Made by a program: the position numbers and the translations under genes. This document shows, in pieces, positions 5,863 to 13,087 of a stretch of 64,000 nt of DNA. The stretch covers positions 1,922,001-1,986,000 of the forward strand of contig NZ_JADWYI010000001.1 of assembly GCF_016904885.1 (NCBI RefSeq), written 5' to 3'. The stretch comes from Archangium primigenium. Lineage in GTDB: Bacteria > Myxococcota > Myxococcia > Myxococcales > Myxococcaceae. How positions within the stretch are numbered: the stretch's first letter is position 1; every line of letters begins with the position of its first letter. The notes beneath the pieces were generated by a model. It searched no databases. It had not been told where the DNA came from and worked only from the letters and a program-made list of their open reading frames with translations.

Positions 5863-7539
5863 CTACTTCACGCGCGTAATACGGTCCGTGGCGGGGGGCG
5901 CGAGCGGGGAATGCGCCTTGAGGTAGGAATCCATGGCTTCCACGTCGAGCGGGCCTCCCTGGCGATGCGTGCCCAGGGCGAAGACGCGGAAGCCGTCCCC
6001 GCCGCCCGCGAGGAAGCTGCTGACCGTCACCCGGTAGAGGGTCTCGGGGCGCACCGGGGCGCCATCGAGCCGCAGGCTCGCGGGGTCCACCTTCTGGCCC
6101 TCGGGGGCCGACTCGCGCCAAGTATAGGTGAAGCCGCGCGAGGGCTGGAGGATGTGCGTGGCGCCGCCGCGCCACTGGGACTCGAGCAGCTCGTGCAACT
6201 GGGCGCCGGAGAGCGTGAAGGTCACCAGGGCGTTGCCGAAGGGCTGCACGGTGACGGCCTCGCCATAGGTGACGTCGCCGGCGTCGAGCTCCGCGCGGAT
6301 GCCGCCCGCGTTCATGAAGGACACCTGGGCGCCCGCGCCGCGCGTGGCCTCCAGCTGCGCGTCGGAGATCATGTTGCCCAGGGAGGACTCGCCCGAGGGC
6401 CACACGTTCGCGTCCGGCTTGCGCAGGGGCGCGGTGAGCCGGCCGAGCACCCGGTCGCGCAGTGGCGCGGACAGCGCGTCGTAGTGCTCGACGAGCGCGC
6501 GCACCGCCTCCACGCCGGGGCCCTCGCGCGTGACGATGACGTTGTGCGCGTCCGTCTTCACCACGTCGCCACTCGCGCGGTCGAGCGTGAGGTCCATCCG
6601 GGTGATGAGCCGGCCGTAGGACGCCGCGCTGGTGACGCGCTTGCCGAAAAGCTCGCAGTTGTAGGCCTGATGGGTGTGGGCGCTGAGCACCACGTCCACC
6701 TCGGCGTCCATGCGGCGCACGATGTCCACGAGCGGCCCGGTGAGGCCCTCGCACCCGTCATACGTCCCGCCCGGCTGCTGGATGCCACCCTCGTGCACCA
6801 GCACCACGATGGCCTTCACGCCCTGCTCGCGCAGCCCGGGCACGAGCGCGTTGACGGTGTCCGCCTCGTCGAGGAAGCGCAGGCCCTGGATGCCCGCCGA
6901 GTCGACGATCTCCGGCGTGCCCTGGAGCGTCATGCCGATGAAGGCCACCTTCACGCCGTCGAACTCGCGCACGGCGTAGGGCGCGAAGAGCGTGGCGCCC
7001 CGCGCATCCACCACGTTGGCCGCGAGGAACTGGAAGCGCGCGCCCTCGAAGCGCTCCTTGCCCACGCAGCCGTCCTTGGGATGGCAGCCGCCCGTCTGCA
7101 GGCGCAGGAGTTCCGCCGCGCCCTCGTCGAACTCGTGGTTGCCCACGGCGTTGAGCGCGAGGCCCATGAGGTTCATCGCCTCGACGGTGGGCTCGTCGTG
7201 GAACAGGCCGGACACGAGCGGGCTCGCGCCGAGGAGGTCTCCCGAGGACACCATCAGCGTGGCGCCCGGCGCCGAGGCGCGCAGCTGCTCCAGGTGGCTC
7301 GCGAGCCACGCCGCGCCGCCGGCCTTCACGCGCTCGTCGCCGGTGCGGATCTCCCCGGACGAGCCCTCGGGCGGCCCGAGGTTGCCGTGGAAGTCGTTGA
7401 TGGCGAGCAGGCGCAGGTGCACGGGGGTGGGCGCCTCGGGGATCTTGGGCGCCGGGGCCGTGTGCGCGCAGGCCACGAACAGCGAGGCCCCGAGCGCCAG
7501 GGCGAGCGGGGCGGTGGGACGGGACGGGCGGAAGGTCAT
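5863..7539 (-). CDS. 5'-nucleotidase / UshA-like metallophosphatase lipoprotein
   Basis: A 558-residue exported enzyme of the UshA/5'-nucleotidase family. The lipobox FVAC places the lipidated Cys at 24. The N-terminal calcineurin-like domain has AINDFHGNL (metal-binding DxH), the SGDLLGAS segment, GNHEFDEG and SAHTHQ. The C-terminal domain contains SFMNAGGIRAEL and the late GGDGF motif, both typical of the substrate-binding 5'-nucleotidase C domain. Such enzymes hydrolyse extracellular nucleotides or UDP-sugars for salvage. A gene with its own promoter is likely, as the upstream region lies at the edge of the low-GC island. Confidence 0.9.
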   Translation of the reverse strand: MTFRPSRPTAPLALALGASLFVACAHTAPAPKIPEAPTPVHLRLLAINDFHGNLGPPEGSSGEIRTGDERVKAGGAAWLASHLEQLRASAPGATLMVSSGDLLGASPLVSGLFHDEPTVEAMNLMGLALNAVGNHEFDEGAAELLRLQTGGCHPKDGCVGKERFEGARFQFLAANVVDARGATLFAPYAVREFDGVKVAFIGMTLQGTPEIVDSAGIQGLRFLDEADTVNALVPGLREQGVKAIVVLVHEGGIQQPGGTYDGCEGLTGPLVDIVRRMDAEVDVVLSAHTHQAYNCELFGKRVTSAASYGRLITRMDLTLDRASGDVVKTDAHNVIVTREGPGVEAVRALVEHYDALSAPLRDRVLGRLTAPLRKPDANVWPSGESSLGNMISDAQLEATRGAGAQVSFMNAGGIRAELDAGDVTYGEAVTVQPFGNALVTFTLSGAQLHELLESQWRGGATHILQPSRGFTYTWRESAPEGQKVDPASLRLDGAPVRPETLYRVTVSSFLAGGGDGFRVFALGTHRQGGPLDVEAMDSYLKAHSPLAPPATDRITRVK

Positions 7540-7596
7540 GAGCGACTTCTTCTCACAACCCGAGAAGATCTGCCCGGGATGTATGACATGCTTGGC

Positions 7597-7629
7597 GAAA
7601 ACGGCTCCTGTCGTTTCAAGAAAGGAGCT
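7597..7629 (-). terminator. Rho-independent-type terminator of the helicase-nuclease operon
   Basis: On the minus strand, AGCTCCT (7629-7623) pairs with AGGAGCC (7609-7603), giving a 7-bp stem with one G-T pair and a 13-base loop, followed at once by GTTTTC. It lies 13 bases after the nuclease stop codon at 7642, the expected place for an operon terminator. Intrinsic terminators with a U-run are otherwise rare in this window. Confidence 0.6.
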
Positions 7630-7641
7630 GTGGCCGTCCGC

Positions 7642-9039
7642 TCATATCGGCTCCCCACCAGGGGTTTCGGGCTCGATGGCCGAGCGGGTGTGCACCATGA
7701 GTGTGTCCATCCGGGCCTGACCGGGTTGGGTCAACCAATCATGGAACGACTGAAGGCTCATGGAGTCCTTCATGAGGCGGGTGAATGCCTCAGCGAGATC
7801 ATGGGTTTCCACGACACACAGCCGTGCGATGGATTCGAGGTTCTCGGGGACGTTGGGATCGACTCCCGGCTGGCAGAGCGTCACGCAAAAATTGTCCCGA
7901 TAGCCGTATTGCTCTGAACTCGCGAGGACGACCCGGGCGGCGGTGAGGTCAACGAGTTCTTTTCCCTGCTTGGTCTTGCATTCCACGACGACGTCCGGCC
8001 GCTCGTCGAACTGGAGTAGATAGTCGAACGCCCCTGCCTTCTGGTCTGCGTCGAACAGCTTGTATTCAATCCCCACACGCTTCAGAAGGTTCTGGAAGGC
8101 GACCTCAAACTCCTTTCCTCGGCTGCGATAGAACTCCTCGATCAAGTGGCGATCCGCCTCGTCAACGCGGTCAATCTGCTGCTGCAGATGCCGCTCGCGA
8201 ACGGTGGTGTGCCAGTTGTTGGCGAGCTGTTGGATTTCCTTGGCGCGCTCATGCGGATTACTCACGCCATCCGCGGTCAGGATTTCAACGAGAGTGTTCC
8301 AATTGCTTCGTCTCCGAAGACTCTCGAATGAGCCGAGGCCAACTTGATGGAGGGAGAACGCTTCTTGCCGACCGACAGCGCGCTCTCCGGTCGCGGTCTT
8401 GAGCCGGGTCATCCACAGAACGGCAGAGGGAAGACCGACGTCTAGGCGCCATTGGAGCCGGCGTATTGGCGCAAGCAGCTTGCGCAGTTCGCTGAGCGCG
8501 GGGCGCGAGAAAGCCCTCAGGCACAGGGGTCGCTCCTGGACCGAGATTGTCGGTTTGGTGGCCGCCGCGAGGATGTTGGCGAGTCCAGAGAGGACCCAGG
8601 AGACATCTCGGCAGAGGCCCTTGATGGTGCCTGCCCGAACTCCAGGAAGCTGTCCCTCCAGGAGGTTCATGGGCACGCCATCGCTCCAGTCGATGAGAAG
8701 GGTGGCGGCGTTCGCTGCGGAACGATACGCCTGCCAGGTAGGCTCCGCGAGCAGTGAGGCATAACGCTCGACCCGCTCGTTCTGGACGGTTTCGTCGAAG
8801 CCGTAGGGAATCGTGCGTGTCCGATTATTGCTGGAGAACTCGGGCGCGGTCAGGCATGCATTGAGCAGGCAGTAGTTCAGTTGCATGGCGTCGCCCGGGT
8901 GTTGCTCACCACCGGGCACCAGCGCACTGAGTTCGTTGCCACGAAGTGACAGGTATTCCAAGAGGTAGGAGGCGGTGCTCGGAAGCAGTCCGCTAAAGGC
9001 GACTTGCCGTCCGACCTCTGTCGCATGGAGCGCCGTCAT
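7642..9039 (-). CDS. Ski2-helicase C-terminal domains fused to a PD-(D/E)XK nuclease
   Basis: A 465-residue protein (ATG at 9039) whose ATGA overlaps the helicase stop, so translation is probably coupled. Residues 1-30 (HATEVGRQVAFSGLLPSTAS) look like the end of the winged-helix region of Ski2/Hel308 helicases. Residues about 85-215 resemble the ratchet bundle (LLIDWSDGVPMNLLEG, then DVSWVLSGLANIL). Residues about 215-270 resemble a helix-hairpin-helix tail. Residues about 300-430 form a restriction-endonuclease-like domain with Glu309/310, Asp339 (GAFDYLLQF) and Glu353-Cys-Lys355 (VVVECKTK). It therefore completes the upstream helicase and adds a nuclease. Base composition is lower in GC than the neighbours, suggesting transfer. 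Nuclease activity is inferred from motifs only. Confidence 0.72.
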   Translation of the reverse strand: MTALHATEVGRQVAFSGLLPSTASYLLEYLSLRGNELSALVPGGEQHPGDAMQLNYCLLNACLTAPEFSSNNRTRTIPYGFDETVQNERVERYASLLAEPTWQAYRSAANAATLLIDWSDGVPMNLLEGQLPGVRAGTIKGLCRDVSWVLSGLANILAAATKPTISVQERPLCLRAFSRPALSELRKLLAPIRRLQWRLDVGLPSAVLWMTRLKTATGERAVGRQEAFSLHQVGLGSFESLRRRSNWNTLVEILTADGVSNPHERAKEIQQLANNWHTTVRERHLQQQIDRVDEADRHLIEEFYRSRGKEFEVAFQNLLKRVGIEYKLFDADQKAGAFDYLLQFDERPDVVVECKTKQGKELVDLTAARVVLASSEQYGYRDNFCVTLCQPGVDPNVPENLESIARLCVVETHDLAEAFTRLMKDSMSLQSFHDWLTQPGQARMDTLMVHTRSAIEPETPGGEPI

Positions 9040-10580
9040 AGGATGAATCCCCACGACTTGAGTTCGAGGACGGCTTGTCTCATGGATTCCTTCCAGTGGG
9101 CAAGTCCGGTGCGGTTGGCCCCTCGTTCCCTCATCGCGCTGAAGCTACCCGAGAGAAATTCGTCGATGTCATCTGCGGTCTGGCACACGCCCGAGGAGAC
9201 GAGTTGAAGCGCCAGTTGACTGAATACCTTCGGATCAATCCGAGGAGTGAGGGGAGTGGTCTGATCGGGAGTGAGATAAGTCGCGATGGTCTGTCGCTCA
9301 AAGAATTGATCCGTGGCCATGAAGATAACGCTCCCATGCGAGTGCTGGGAACCCATGCGCCCGACTCTGCCGGCCATGTTGTGGAATTCGCTCGCGGACA
9401 GGGGCTTCTTGGATTTGCTCCGGCTGTCCCACAATTTCCAGTCGTCGAAGACCGCTGTTTTGAAGGGGAAGTTGACCCCGGCTGCCAGGGTGCTGGTCGC
9501 GAAGACCACATCGAGTTTTCTTGAGTTTAGTTGCTCCTCCACCACGATCCGTTCTTCCTCAAGCAGGTCGGAGGTGTGAAAGGCGAACCGCTGAGGAATG
9601 ATGCTGGACAGTGTCCTCGCGGATGCTGTGGGTTCTCTCAGAGGGGGAAGAAGCGGTTGCTTGGGCGAGAAGCGCACTCCTCGGACCCGGGCATAGTTCT
9701 GGACGGATTGTTCTACCCGCTTCTTGGACATACAGAAGACCACGATGGGCAGGTTCGACTTGTCCTGTACCAGGTTCATGAGCACCGTGTCGGGGTTGTA
9801 CCCTTCCTGGGGTGAACGGTTCCTCTCGGAAACACCTGCTTCCGGCTGATCCGTCTTGAATGTGAGCGCCCGTGTGGAAGTCCGGCATTCGTAATGGAGG
9901 TGCTTCTCCCGGCGTTCGAGCCGGATGAGGATGACTTCGAGCCAGTCCTTCAAGTCTCTCGCATCGCGCGCGTCGATGACCGCTGAGAGGCCGATAAACT
10001 GTCCCCAGCGCGCCTTCCGGAGGAGTGTCAGCAAGACCTCGATGTTACGGCCCCGATTCTCATCCCCAAGGATTTGAATTTCGTCGCAGACGATGGCGCA
10101 GTGGGACATGTCCGTGCTGATGCCCGTGCCAGAAATCATCGCGAGATACTTCTCGTAGGTTGCGACGAGGATGGACGAGTTCAAGGGCTCCGACGGAATG
10201 TTTCCCGCACCATCCTCGACGGTATCGCCGTTCGCCAGGACGATGCTCGTCCTGTCCTTATTCAGGTGGCGGTCACACAGAAGCTTCAAAAGTTCCTCGA
10301 ACTTCTGCCTGGCCAATGCGCGATGCGTGACCAGATACACGGCGCGGCGGGAGTTGCGCGAGAAGATCCAACTGGACAGGGCCCACACGCCGACGAGGGT
10401 TTTTCCCGTGGACGTCGGTGCCACGACGAGCAGGGACTCGCCTCGCGCAACTCCCTGGCTCAATGCTTCATGCTGGACGTCGGTCAGGGATGGTGCGCCC
10501 TCTTTCGTTCTGGGAACGAGCTCCGCGTCACCGAGGAGTGCATCAGGAAGACCGTGGTTCGCGGGTAGGCTAAACTTCAT
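9036..10580 (-). CDS. Ski2-like superfamily 2 helicase core (split helicase)
   Basis: A 514-residue SF2 helicase core. Walker A is APTSTGKT at 54-61, motif II is DEIQ at 166-169 (DEIH/DEVH in most Ski2 proteins), motif III is SAV at 199-201, motif V is ATSTLAAGVNFPF at 361-373 and motif VI is HNMAGRVGRMG at 400-410. It ends at LELKSWGFIL, in the middle of what is normally a winged-helix domain; the rest of a Ski2 helicase is found in the next gene. The chosen ATG at 10580 has a GAGGG ribosome site; the longer open frame to 11198 crosses the neighbouring plus-strand gene. Its role is probably ATP-driven translocation on nucleic acid to feed or license the partner nuclease (inference). Confidence 0.82.
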   Translation of the reverse strand: MKFSLPANHGLPDALLGDAELVPRTKEGAPSLTDVQHEALSQGVARGESLLVVAPTSTGKTLVGVWALSSWIFSRNSRRAVYLVTHRALARQKFEELLKLLCDRHLNKDRTSIVLANGDTVEDGAGNIPSEPLNSSILVATYEKYLAMISGTGISTDMSHCAIVCDEIQILGDENRGRNIEVLLTLLRKARWGQFIGLSAVIDARDARDLKDWLEVILIRLERREKHLHYECRTSTRALTFKTDQPEAGVSERNRSPQEGYNPDTVLMNLVQDKSNLPIVVFCMSKKRVEQSVQNYARVRGVRFSPKQPLLPPLREPTASARTLSSIIPQRFAFHTSDLLEEERIVVEEQLNSRKLDVVFATSTLAAGVNFPFKTAVFDDWKLWDSRSKSKKPLSASEFHNMAGRVGRMGSQHSHGSVIFMATDQFFERQTIATYLTPDQTTPLTPRIDPKVFSQLALQLVSSGVCQTADDIDEFLSGSFSAMRERGANRTGLAHWKESMRQAVLELKSWGFIL

Positions 10581-10634
10581 GCATCCCTCATGGAGAGTGA
10601 CGCAAAAAACATGGCGGACGGCTCCTGCCCTTTC

Positions 10635-10654
10635 CATACCCCCTTGGAGGTATG
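10635..10654. promoter_or_regulatory. Imperfect palindrome upstream of the helicase gene
   Basis: CATACCCCC and GGAGGTATG flank a central TT, giving 9-base arms with one mismatch, 55 bases upstream of the helicase start. The position and symmetry suit a dimeric regulator binding at the operon promoter. No regulator gene is seen in the island. Confidence 0.35.
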
Positions 10655-10796
10655 ACACCGCAGTCATGCTGAGGGGCAATGTGCTTGTTGAACTGGCTCC
10701 CGTGAATGGCCACCGGTTTCCGTCATGAGCGGAGACGCGGGAACTCTTTGGCTGGCCGGGTGTCCGAGCGGGCGTCTCTTTCCACGGAGGTCCGCC

Positions 10797-11165
10797 ATGC
10801 TGGATGCATTCGTTGCTGGAGGATTCGGGATGTACCCCACGCTGCTCGCGGGGCTCGGACTGCTGGCCGCTTGTCTGCGCTACGCCCGCCGCCCCGAGGC
10901 CCGTCATGTCCCCTTGATGCTCTGTCTGGGGCTCTTCACGTTGATGGCGGGCGCGCTCGGCTTCGTCACCGGCGTGATGGCGATGCTCCGCGGCTTCGGA
11001 ACGTCCGCGGGCGACGTGCGCCCAGAGGTCGTCCTGTCCCTCGGGCTCCAGGAGTCGCTGCACAACATCGCGCTGGCCCTCCTCTTGGTCACCCTGTCCG
11101 TGCTGGCGGCGTCCGTGGGGGCCTGGCGGCTGTCTCACCGCGTCTCCTCGCCCGTGCCCGCCTAG
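10797..11165 (+). CDS. Small membrane protein resembling the start of MotA/TolQ/ExbB proteins
   Basis: A 122-residue protein with three hydrophobic segments (about 10-27, 38-58 and 84-108). The N terminus AFVAGGFGMYPTLLAGL recalls the first helix of MotA/TolQ/ExbB proton-channel subunits, and the remaining helices are laid out similarly, but the protein stops before the family's conserved C-terminal helices finish. The ATG at 10797 is preceded by ACGGAGG, a good ribosome site, so the longer upstream frame was not used. It lies at the edge of the low-GC island but has the high GC of the chromosome. No partner (ExbD/TolR) gene is nearby. Function uncertain. Confidence 0.6.
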   Translation: MLDAFVAGGFGMYPTLLAGLGLLAACLRYARRPEARHVPLMLCLGLFTLMAGALGFVTGVMAMLRGFGTSAGDVRPEVVLSLGLQESLHNIALALLLVTLSVLAASVGAWRLSHRVSSPVPA

Positions 11166-11302
11166 GAACCCGGACAGGCCCGGGGATGGTTTCCGCACCG
11201 AGGGCTTGCCCGCTCGTCCGCCTCTTCGGGTGAGCCCTGGAAGGGAGGGCGCGGCGCGGAGCGAGCCGGTAGACTCCCGAGCGTCACGAAGGGAGACGCC
11301 GT

Positions 11303-13087
11303 TTGGGGGCTCGATCCTCCTCCACCATCCAGGCGATGACCGCCGTGGGCTTCCTGCTGCTGTTCTACGCGGGCGCCCTGGGCGTGGCGGGGCTGCTGCT
11401 GGCGCTGCCCTACCTGCTGTACACGACCCACCGCTTCCACGCGCTGCTCACCGTGCTGTGCCTGGCGGGCTCGGGCGCGCTCGTGTGGAGCCTCTGGCCG
11501 CGCTTCGAGCGCTTCGTGCCCCCGGGGCTCCGGCTCACCGAGGCGGAGCATCCCCGGCTGTTCGCCGCCATCCGCGACGTGGCCGGGCGCATGGGCACGC
11601 GCATGCCGGACGCCGTGTACCTGGTGGAGGACGTGAACGCGTATGTCCTCCAGGTGGGCGGCGTGCTCGGACTGGGCGGGCAGCGGGTGCTCTGCGTGGG
11701 CCTGGGCCTGCTCGCGGTGGACGACTTGTCGCAGTGGCGCGCGGCGGTGGCGCACGAGTTCGGCCATTTCCAGGGCGGGGACACGCGGCTCGTGGGGCTG
11801 CTGTGCGCCACGCGCTCGGCGATGATCCGCACCCTGGGCGGGTGGCGCTTCTTCTCCTGGGTCCCGGAGACCTTCCTGCGCCTGACGCAAGCCCTGAGCC
11901 GTCGGCAGGAACTGGTGGCGGACACGTGGAGCGTGCGGCTGGCGGGCAAGCGCGCGCACCTGTCCGGCCTGCGCTGGGAGGCCCTGCACGCGCGCGCCTG
12001 GCGCCGCTACCTGGCGCGCGAGGTGCTGCCCCTGGCGAGTCGGGGCGTGGTGCCGGACAACCTCTTCGAGGGCTACCGCCGCTACCTGGCGAGCGCGGAC
12101 TGGGCCGAGGGCCTGCGGGAGTGGGATGCCGCGTGCGAGCCGGCGAGCTGCCCGTACGACTCGCACCCGAGCCTGGAGGAGCGCATCGCCTTCGCCGAGC
12201 GGCTGGAGGCGCCGGACGTGCCCCCGGACGAGCGGCCCGCGTACACCCTGCTGTCGGACGCGGAGGCGCTGGAGCGGCGCTTCACGGCGCGGCTGTGGCC
12301 GCGCGCGGTGGAGTTCATCCCCTGGAGCGCGGCGGGCGAGCACTGGCGGGCGCTGTGGAACGAGACGGCCAGCCGCGTCCAGGCGCGGGTGCCGGACTTC
12401 AGCCTGGCGCGCGTGGCGGCGCTGGTGAAGGACGCGGGCGCGTGGGAGCCCTTCGCGGAGGCCATCCAGCCGCGGCTGGTGGGCTACCGGGCGCCGGACC
12501 GGGCCGAGCGCGTGCGGGAAGTGGTGGCCGGCTCGGTGAGCGCGTATCTGGCGAGCATCCTCTCCGCGCAGGGCCTCGCGTGGCGCACCTCGCCGGGGGA
12601 GCCGCTGCGGCTCGACTGCGCGGGGGAGCCGGTGGAGCCCGTGGCCCTGGTGGACGGCCTGCTGGCGGGCACGCTCGGCGCGGACACGCTGGAGCGGCTG
12701 CGCGAGCGGCTGGCGGTGGACGCGGACGCGGCGTGGCGTGTGCCGGAGTCAGCGCGCGCCGAGGCGCTCGAGCCCCGGGCCCCGGTGACGGTGGAGCGCA
12801 CGGGCGGCGCGGTGGTGGTGCGCGCGCCCTTCTCGCGCCTGGGCCTGCCCGAGTGCTGTGCCCTGTGCGGCGGCGAGCGCGCCCGCCACGTGGAGACGCG
12901 CTTCCACGTGGGCGGCATGCTGCGCGACGACGGCGACGTCACGCTCCCGGTGCCCGTCTGCCAGGCGCACGCGCACCAGCCGCACAAGGCCTTCAAGGTC
13001 CGCCACTACGAGGAGGAGTCGGACCTCATCACCCTGGAGGTGCCCACCTGGGAGTACGCGCGGCTCATCCAGCGCAGCAACGCGTGA
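11303..13087 (+). CDS. M48-family zinc metallopeptidase with a cysteine-rich C-terminal extension
   Basis: A 594-residue membrane-associated peptidase. Two hydrophobic segments lie at about 12-35 and 45-65. The zinc motif HEFGH is at 151-155, and the downstream RRQELVADTW supplies the probable third ligand (Glu) of M48/HtpX-like enzymes. After the catalytic domain (to about residue 300) come some 290 residues without a recognised domain, including CCALCGG and two later conserved-looking Cys/His clusters that could bind metal. I chose the TTG at 11303 because AAGGGAG stands just upstream; the next ATG (11336) has no ribosome site. Such peptidases act in membrane protein or envelope quality control; the target here is unknown. 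Confidence 0.82.
   Translation: MGARSSSTIQAMTAVGFLLLFYAGALGVAGLLLALPYLLYTTHRFHALLTVLCLAGSGALVWSLWPRFERFVPPGLRLTEAEHPRLFAAIRDVAGRMGTRMPDAVYLVEDVNAYVLQVGGVLGLGGQRVLCVGLGLLAVDDLSQWRAAVAHEFGHFQGGDTRLVGLLCATRSAMIRTLGGWRFFSWVPETFLRLTQALSRRQELVADTWSVRLAGKRAHLSGLRWEALHARAWRRYLAREVLPLASRGVVPDNLFEGYRRYLASADWAEGLREWDAACEPASCPYDSHPSLEERIAFAERLEAPDVPPDERPAYTLLSDAEALERRFTARLWPRAVEFIPWSAAGEHWRALWNETASRVQARVPDFSLARVAALVKDAGAWEPFAEAIQPRLVGYRAPDRAERVREVVAGSVSAYLASILSAQGLAWRTSPGEPLRLDCAGEPVEPVALVDGLLAGTLGADTLERLRERLAVDADAAWRVPESARAEALEPRAPVTVERTGGAVVVRAPFSRLGLPECCALCGGERARHVETRFHVGGMLRDDGDVTLPVPVCQAHAHQPHKAFKVRHYEEESDLITLEVPTWEYARLIQRSNA

Follow-up and report, generated by a model that had tools for sequence, protein, structure and literature searches.

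Does a helicase gene that breaks off inside one of its domains and appears to continue in the next open reading frame represent a damaged gene or a helicase maintained as two chains, and what could such a pair do? This question is raised by a locus in a window of 64,000 nucleotides from Archangium primigenium (contig NZ_JADWYI010000001.1, positions 1,922,001 to 1,986,000; window positions are used below). The upstream gene lies on the reverse strand at 9036–10580, starts with ATG and encodes a protein of 514 aa (chain A) with a Hel308/Ski2-type core of RecA1, RecA2 and the first part of a winged helix. Its C-terminus, WGFIL, lies inside this winged helix, at the wing turn when compared with single-chain relatives. 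The downstream gene on the same strand (7642–9039, ATG start, 465 aa; chain B) would supply the rest of the winged helix, a ratchet and an HhH domain with residues 1–278, and a FokI-like PD-(D/E)XK nuclease with residues 279–444, both according to the predicted fold. Its putative catalytic motif region, codons D339 to K355 including E353, is located at 7975–8025 (reverse strand) and is invariant in our alignments. Both open reading frames were found as given in a preliminary description of the locus, and they share an ATGA start/stop overlap at 9036–9039 on the reverse strand.

Its sequence places chain A among the SF2 helicases, in the Ski2 superfamily, with archaeal Hel308 proteins as the best sequence relatives. 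DEAD and Helicase_C were matched above the Pfam cut-offs, and the NCBIfam Hel308-type model PRK02362 aligned with residues 26–486 at 170 bits (cut-off 887 bits). The cut-offs of the Hel308 equivalog models were not reached (NF002654, 170 versus 887 bits; NF040935, 116 versus 1200 bits). In the PDB, archaeal Hel308 (2zj2) was matched with E 3.3e-28 versus E 1.3e-5 for HamB. Among the best 25 of 43 PADLOC families for chain A, HamB came first with 106 bits on core segments, followed by SngC of Shango with a partial match (73.5 bits; chain A residues 30–467 on positions 23–407 of a profile of 720), and no model covering the gene pair was present. The DEAD, Helicase_C and Hel308-type matches agree with the earlier proposal of a helicase core that ends within the winged helix.

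Chain B gave no strong sequence match, with Helicase_dom4_arc (residues 98–171) and Mrr_cat (307–417) both below the Pfam cut-offs. Its fold was taken from an AlphaFold2 model with nine relatives (mean pLDDT 82.6). In this model, the fold matches of residues 1–278 are DNA polymerase theta and Hel308, the latter with its C-terminal third (2zj8, 474–700; Z 17.9, 214 aligned, rmsd 3.5). Residues 203–276 additionally matched parts of NusA and PolX, with Z scores of 5.0–6.3 that are too low to stand alone. For residues 279–444, the best match was the FokI catalytic domain (2fok_B; Z 13.2, 156 aligned, rmsd 3.1); the nuclease of Hna (9yhn; Z 8.4, 144 aligned, rmsd 4.4) and HindIII (Z 8.1) scored lower. 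The modelled nuclease core has the order helix-strand-strand-strand-helix-strand (H309–322, E325–328, E340–344, E347–355, H365–377, E384–389), and D339, E353 and K355 are invariant in all eight rows of one alignment and all ten of another. The C-terminus of chain B is hence a predicted PD-(D/E)XK nuclease with a fold closest to the FokI catalytic domain. Judged from the sequence of chain A and the model of chain B, both chains jointly carry the RecA1-RecA2-winged helix-ratchet-HhH order of Hel308 plus a nuclease. The preliminary description had read from the letters alone one Ski2-type architecture distributed over two chains, with the remaining winged helix, ratchet and HhH at the start of the downstream gene and a nuclease marked by Asp339 and Glu353-x-Lys355 behind them; it had named a failed nuclease fold prediction as a reason to abandon this view. 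The prediction succeeded, and all these parts were recovered.

In a sample of the phylum, at least 8 of 195 genomes matched chain B, the genome of the window included. Such counts are lower bounds, because only four to eight candidates per genome were scored. One of the eight (L018/G158) was set aside as a weak match of 112 residues, and L025 was counted together with G142 as one, because their contigs have the same length. All seven complete relatives found in the window family, belonging to three genera and including the window itself, have their split at one and the same codon, and their genes overlap by RTGA (ATGA or GTGA): chain A ends with WGF(I/M/L)L, and chain B starts at the RTG overlapping the stop codon. 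The other split copies diverge from the chains encoded in the window by 33–44% in chain B and 33–41% in chain A. Judged from substitution patterns, purifying selection acts on both chains, with dN/dS values in four pairs of 0.136–0.174 for chain A and 0.140–0.204 for chain B; the values for the pair G000-G002 are less sure because its dS is near 1.4.

These data bear on two rival readings of the overlap. A stop/start overlap may resemble a frameshift caused by sequencing or by gene decay, and one Methylobacterium relative is truly broken, at a different place. A break shared by seven of seven relatives from three genera, with chain B diverged by 33–44%, excludes a sequencing error at 9036–9039, and purifying selection on both chains (dN/dS 0.14–0.20) argues against decay. 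Sequencing error and pseudogene were accordingly rejected as explanations, and an accidental frameshift of either kind is scarcely conceivable here. More serious is a programmed −1 frameshift site by which a fused full-length protein would be made as well. Chain B indeed occupies the −1 frame, which in each of the seven loci reaches back without a stop codon by at least nine codons into chain A, and a TGGGGRTTC run is kept in all of them. The Gly codon in this run is GGG in six loci and GGA in one, against a background of 90 GGG among 413 Gly codons in 14 chains; because the seven loci are related, they amount to far fewer than seven independent cases. On reading, an X_XXY_YYZ heptamer is absent, and the G run might just as well serve chain B as a ribosome-binding sequence. 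Moreover, the conserved zero-frame end GF(I/L/M)L, which the −1 reading would replace, aligns with the wing strand of the single-chain relatives. Programmed frameshifting is thus quite improbable, and we regard the pair as two genes kept as such, as had been suspected beforehand.

Outside the window family, 11 relatives were found. Nine of them are complete (seven distinct), and all nine are one uninterrupted chain of about 960 aa: two near-identical copies on Cereibacter plasmids, one in Pandoraea, two near-identical ones in Mesorhizobium, one each in Marinovum and Sulfitobacter, one on an IMG/VR contig, and G802. The two incomplete relatives are a 137-aa nuclease remnant in Bradyrhizobium (L031) and the Methylobacterium gene with a frameshift near residue 372 (L027). 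In this strain, Methylobacterium sp. J-068, another contig carries a stretch matching the last nuclease positions. Homologues are thus not uniformly single proteins, as the seven split copies of the window family show. The earlier proposal that both the domain break and the nuclease fusion set the module apart stands for the break, which is unusual; it does not stand for the fusion, which is the common form, since all nine complete outside relatives are single-chain proteins.

The single-chain relatives align across the break point. For the Pandoraea protein of 967 aa, a model of only moderate confidence (pLDDT 71.5) had Hel308/Hjm as top matches and wing strands at residues 508–510 and 515–518, and the break maps to about residue 509. 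By alignment and model, the break sits where the winged helix turns from its first wing strand to its second. A branch with 100/100 support sets the split rows apart in a tree of the nuclease chain. The helicase tree does not resolve their grouping and needs two changes, with a single change in 20% of bootstraps; the outgroup branch was too long to root the tree. Because Hel308 and all complete outside relatives have the broken domain in one piece, fission would be the simpler history. From these sequences we infer a lineage-specific fission of a Hel308-type helicase-nuclease, with its direction taken by parsimony from an unrooted tree.

The family is rare. At least 1 of 399 genomes from the order of the Pandoraea genome and at least 2 of 385 from the class of a Mesorhizobium genome carry it, in each case with the centre genome included and up to four candidates per genome scored. 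A scan of genome contigs with chain B alone found no relative, and one with a profile found eight loci. A phage collection gave no match to chain B and nine records with a single-chain relative, each with at most 51% query cover and less than 32% identity. Searching plasmids returned two records with chain B and 42 with the single chain, of which only the same two matched over most of the length. A viral scan found no relative with the chain B profile and one contig with the chain A profile. Four weaker plasmid helicases of about 1000–1017 aa (L070, L071, L072 and L073 from Bradyrhizobium, Agrobacterium, Hymenobacter and Nitrospirota) have a Ski2/Hel308-like core after an N-terminal part of about 270 residues. 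They share the core with the family, and the ratchet weakly (hhalign probability 35–83%); a C-terminal nuclease part was not seen in these four when their ends were read by eye. An integrase or transposase gene is close to three of the four.

The module was expected to be foreign and mobile, and both expectations held. Its GC content is 0.595 versus 0.721 for the window, and its GC3 is 0.73 versus 0.96 for the neighbouring gene. In all three congeners the site is empty, with the window flanks at 7424 and 11341 lying about 263 bases apart; the missing interval (7425–11340) holds the module and an ORF of 122 aa. Two of these three congeners carry the module elsewhere, at unrelated flanks: an alignment of these two modules over 3,015 columns shows 93.5% identity, and beyond it the 18-kb loci have no sequence in common at E 1e-10. 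In each of the other two genera, the module has one common site within the genus. The copies of the window family reside on large contigs between ordinary genes, and no defence island was seen around the split copies in the lists of neighbouring ORFs.

Among the single-chain relatives, the Pandoraea gene is accompanied within about 6 kb by a WYL regulator, CBASS-type genes (patatin, E1-E2 and JAB) and a SIR2-like gene that PADLOC matched with E 2e-11 but Pfam did not; a CBASS cyclase was not identified near it. Integrases lie about 2–7 kb away in Mesorhizobium, and in Sulfitobacter the distance to one is about 0.6 kb; the Marinovum copy is near IS66, and the viral IMG/VR contig also carries a Zot-type gene and an integrase. 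The plasmids with the Cereibacter copies are typed as conjugative; genes annotated as DarT-family and ADP-ribosylglycohydrolase (no PADLOC match for either) and a UvrD/GajB-like gene are nearby.

Several known systems resemble the module in part. Archaeal Hel308/Hjm proteins (2zj8, 2p6r, 2va8) and the helicase domain of polymerase theta have the same five-domain helicase; unlike archaeal Hel308/Hjm, the module is bacterial, split in the winged helix and provided with a C-terminal nuclease. FokI-type nuclease domains are the best fold match of chain B residues 279–444, but the nuclease of the module is attached to a helicase. Hna (S. meliloti SMa2245, PDC-S28 in PADLOC) also combines an SF2 helicase with a C-terminal PD-(D/E)XK nuclease. 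It is described as a single chain of 845 aa with a DinG/XPD-like helicase and as a 3′-5′ single-strand exonuclease that is restrained by ATP and stimulated by phage SSB (PMC13381803). S. meliloti Hna matched PDC-S28 with 1020 bits over residues 1–842 and contains Helicase_C_2, whereas chain B reached 12.8 bits with its nuclease only, and PDC-S28 was absent among the best 25 of 43 PADLOC families for chain A. Membership in Hna was rejected, as the module has the predicted C-terminal PD-(D/E)XK nuclease but neither a DinG/XPD-like helicase nor a full-length PDC-S28 match.

Hachiman (HamA and HamB) likewise consists of two chains with a Ski2-like helicase and a nuclease. According to one report, its nuclease has a D-ExK motif, HamB is one intact chain whose N-terminal helical domain binds HamA, and HamA is proposed to be set free as the helicase moves (PMC12278908). 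In the module, by contrast, the helicase itself is divided, and there is no DUF1837 and no HamA-binding N-terminal domain, for which no room is left because the helicase core starts at residue 26–33 of chain A. Up to E 1, neither Pfam nor PADLOC gave a DUF1837/HamA match for chain B; with HamB matching on core segments only (106 bits), membership in Hachiman was rejected as well. Hachiman had earlier been named as the nearest known idea without being an exact match. The second half of this statement was borne out; by sequence, Hel308 is nearer than HamB (E 3.3e-28 versus 1.3e-5). By analogy, Hna would be the nearest single-protein functional parallel found, and Hna and Hachiman together the nearest mechanistic ones. 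One paper describes Hel308 as absent from bacteria. In a literature search that included few subscription papers, no publication on this helicase-nuclease family or its split was found, and the Hel308-type helicase with a FokI-like nuclease apparently constitutes an uncharacterised family in bacteria. It would join the whole Hel308 architecture to a FokI-like nuclease.

The reading that we favour, with a probability of about 0.6, is a two-subunit form of a normally single-protein bacterial Hel308-type helicase-nuclease that cuts phage DNA. By analogy, the module probably defends against phages by targeting DNA, in the manner of Hna or Hachiman; defence is proposed because relatives adjoin CBASS-type and SIR2-like genes and integrases and occur on plasmids typed as conjugative and on a viral contig. 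Chain A would be translated first, and ribosomes terminating at RTGA would restart on chain B, so that both chains would be made close together. The last strand of chain A (GFIL) could then pair with the first strand of chain B (LHAT) and complete the winged helix in a 1:1 complex. Hel308 moves in 3′ to 5′ direction. In the same manner, an ATP-driven motor could travel on single-stranded tails or forks and bring the nuclease to replicating or damaged phage (or plasmid) DNA, which would then be cleaved; host DNA would perhaps be cut too, resulting in abortive infection.

Two other functions compete with phage defence. A horizontally acquired helicase-nuclease for DNA repair or genome maintenance would suit the closer relation to Hel308, which acts on stalled forks, than to HamB, as well as the ordinary neighbours of the window family, around which the ORF lists showed no defence island. 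The family is however rare and patchy, its sites differ in congeners, its GC content is foreign, and relatives sit among defence-type genes and on mobile elements, which makes repair a rather doubtful role. The same mobile elements could instead use the module as a weapon by which plasmids, prophages or integrative elements attack rival replicons, as relatives are present on two near-identical plasmids typed as conjugative, on the viral contig with Zot and integrase, and near integrases. Against this unlikely option, the neighbours of the Pandoraea copy include CBASS-type and SIR2-like genes, and the window-family copies are flanked by ordinary genes on large contigs; moreover, it overlaps with defence rather than excluding it. 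Within the preferred two-subunit defence helicase-nuclease, we put forward only tentatively, as a speculative extension, that the split itself serves as control: chain B would be inert alone, and assembly of both chains at the wing, or opening of the joint driven by substrate, would license or release the nuclease. If so, a single-protein helicase-nuclease became a two-part, dissociable defence complex, and a subunit release like that of Hachiman evolved independently by gene fission. In any case, the locus provides a helicase domain with a natural and conserved break, at a point where two chains could complement each other, and matched one-chain and two-chain relatives make it possible to test directly both the proposed defence and the consequences of the break.

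Further features were analyzed around the gene pair. A near-palindrome, TACCYCCNNRGRGGNA, is located at 10637–10652, about 57 bases upstream of chain A, and was found 57–77 bases upstream of chain A in all seven split loci; it may be a candidate operator, or promoter element, of the module itself. It does not look like the site of a genome-wide regulon, since its 1–9 matches per genome resemble the 0–10 matches of a reversed control; G142 had nine matches versus none for the control. The preliminary description had also assigned the module its own terminator, which was not confirmed: the single site of a terminator scan lies on the opposite strand and within the gene itself, and a stem-loop past the chain B stop folds no better than shuffled sequences (z −0.85). 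The 122-aa ORF (10797–11165, forward strand) lies in a high-GC part of the interval missing from the three congeners, and its start, read by eye, resembles a membrane protein. At the 3′ end of the module, homology between G002 (L011, 10893–11079) and G003 stops within a few bases of the chain B stop of G003; in G002 this stop is lost, and the reading frame runs about 63 residues on into the flank. In G142 (L021, 8259–8317), the 3′ end of chain B overlaps the end of an ORF of 1036 aa, tail to tail, by 59 bases, and this ORF, by eye, reads like a DnaE-type polymerase.
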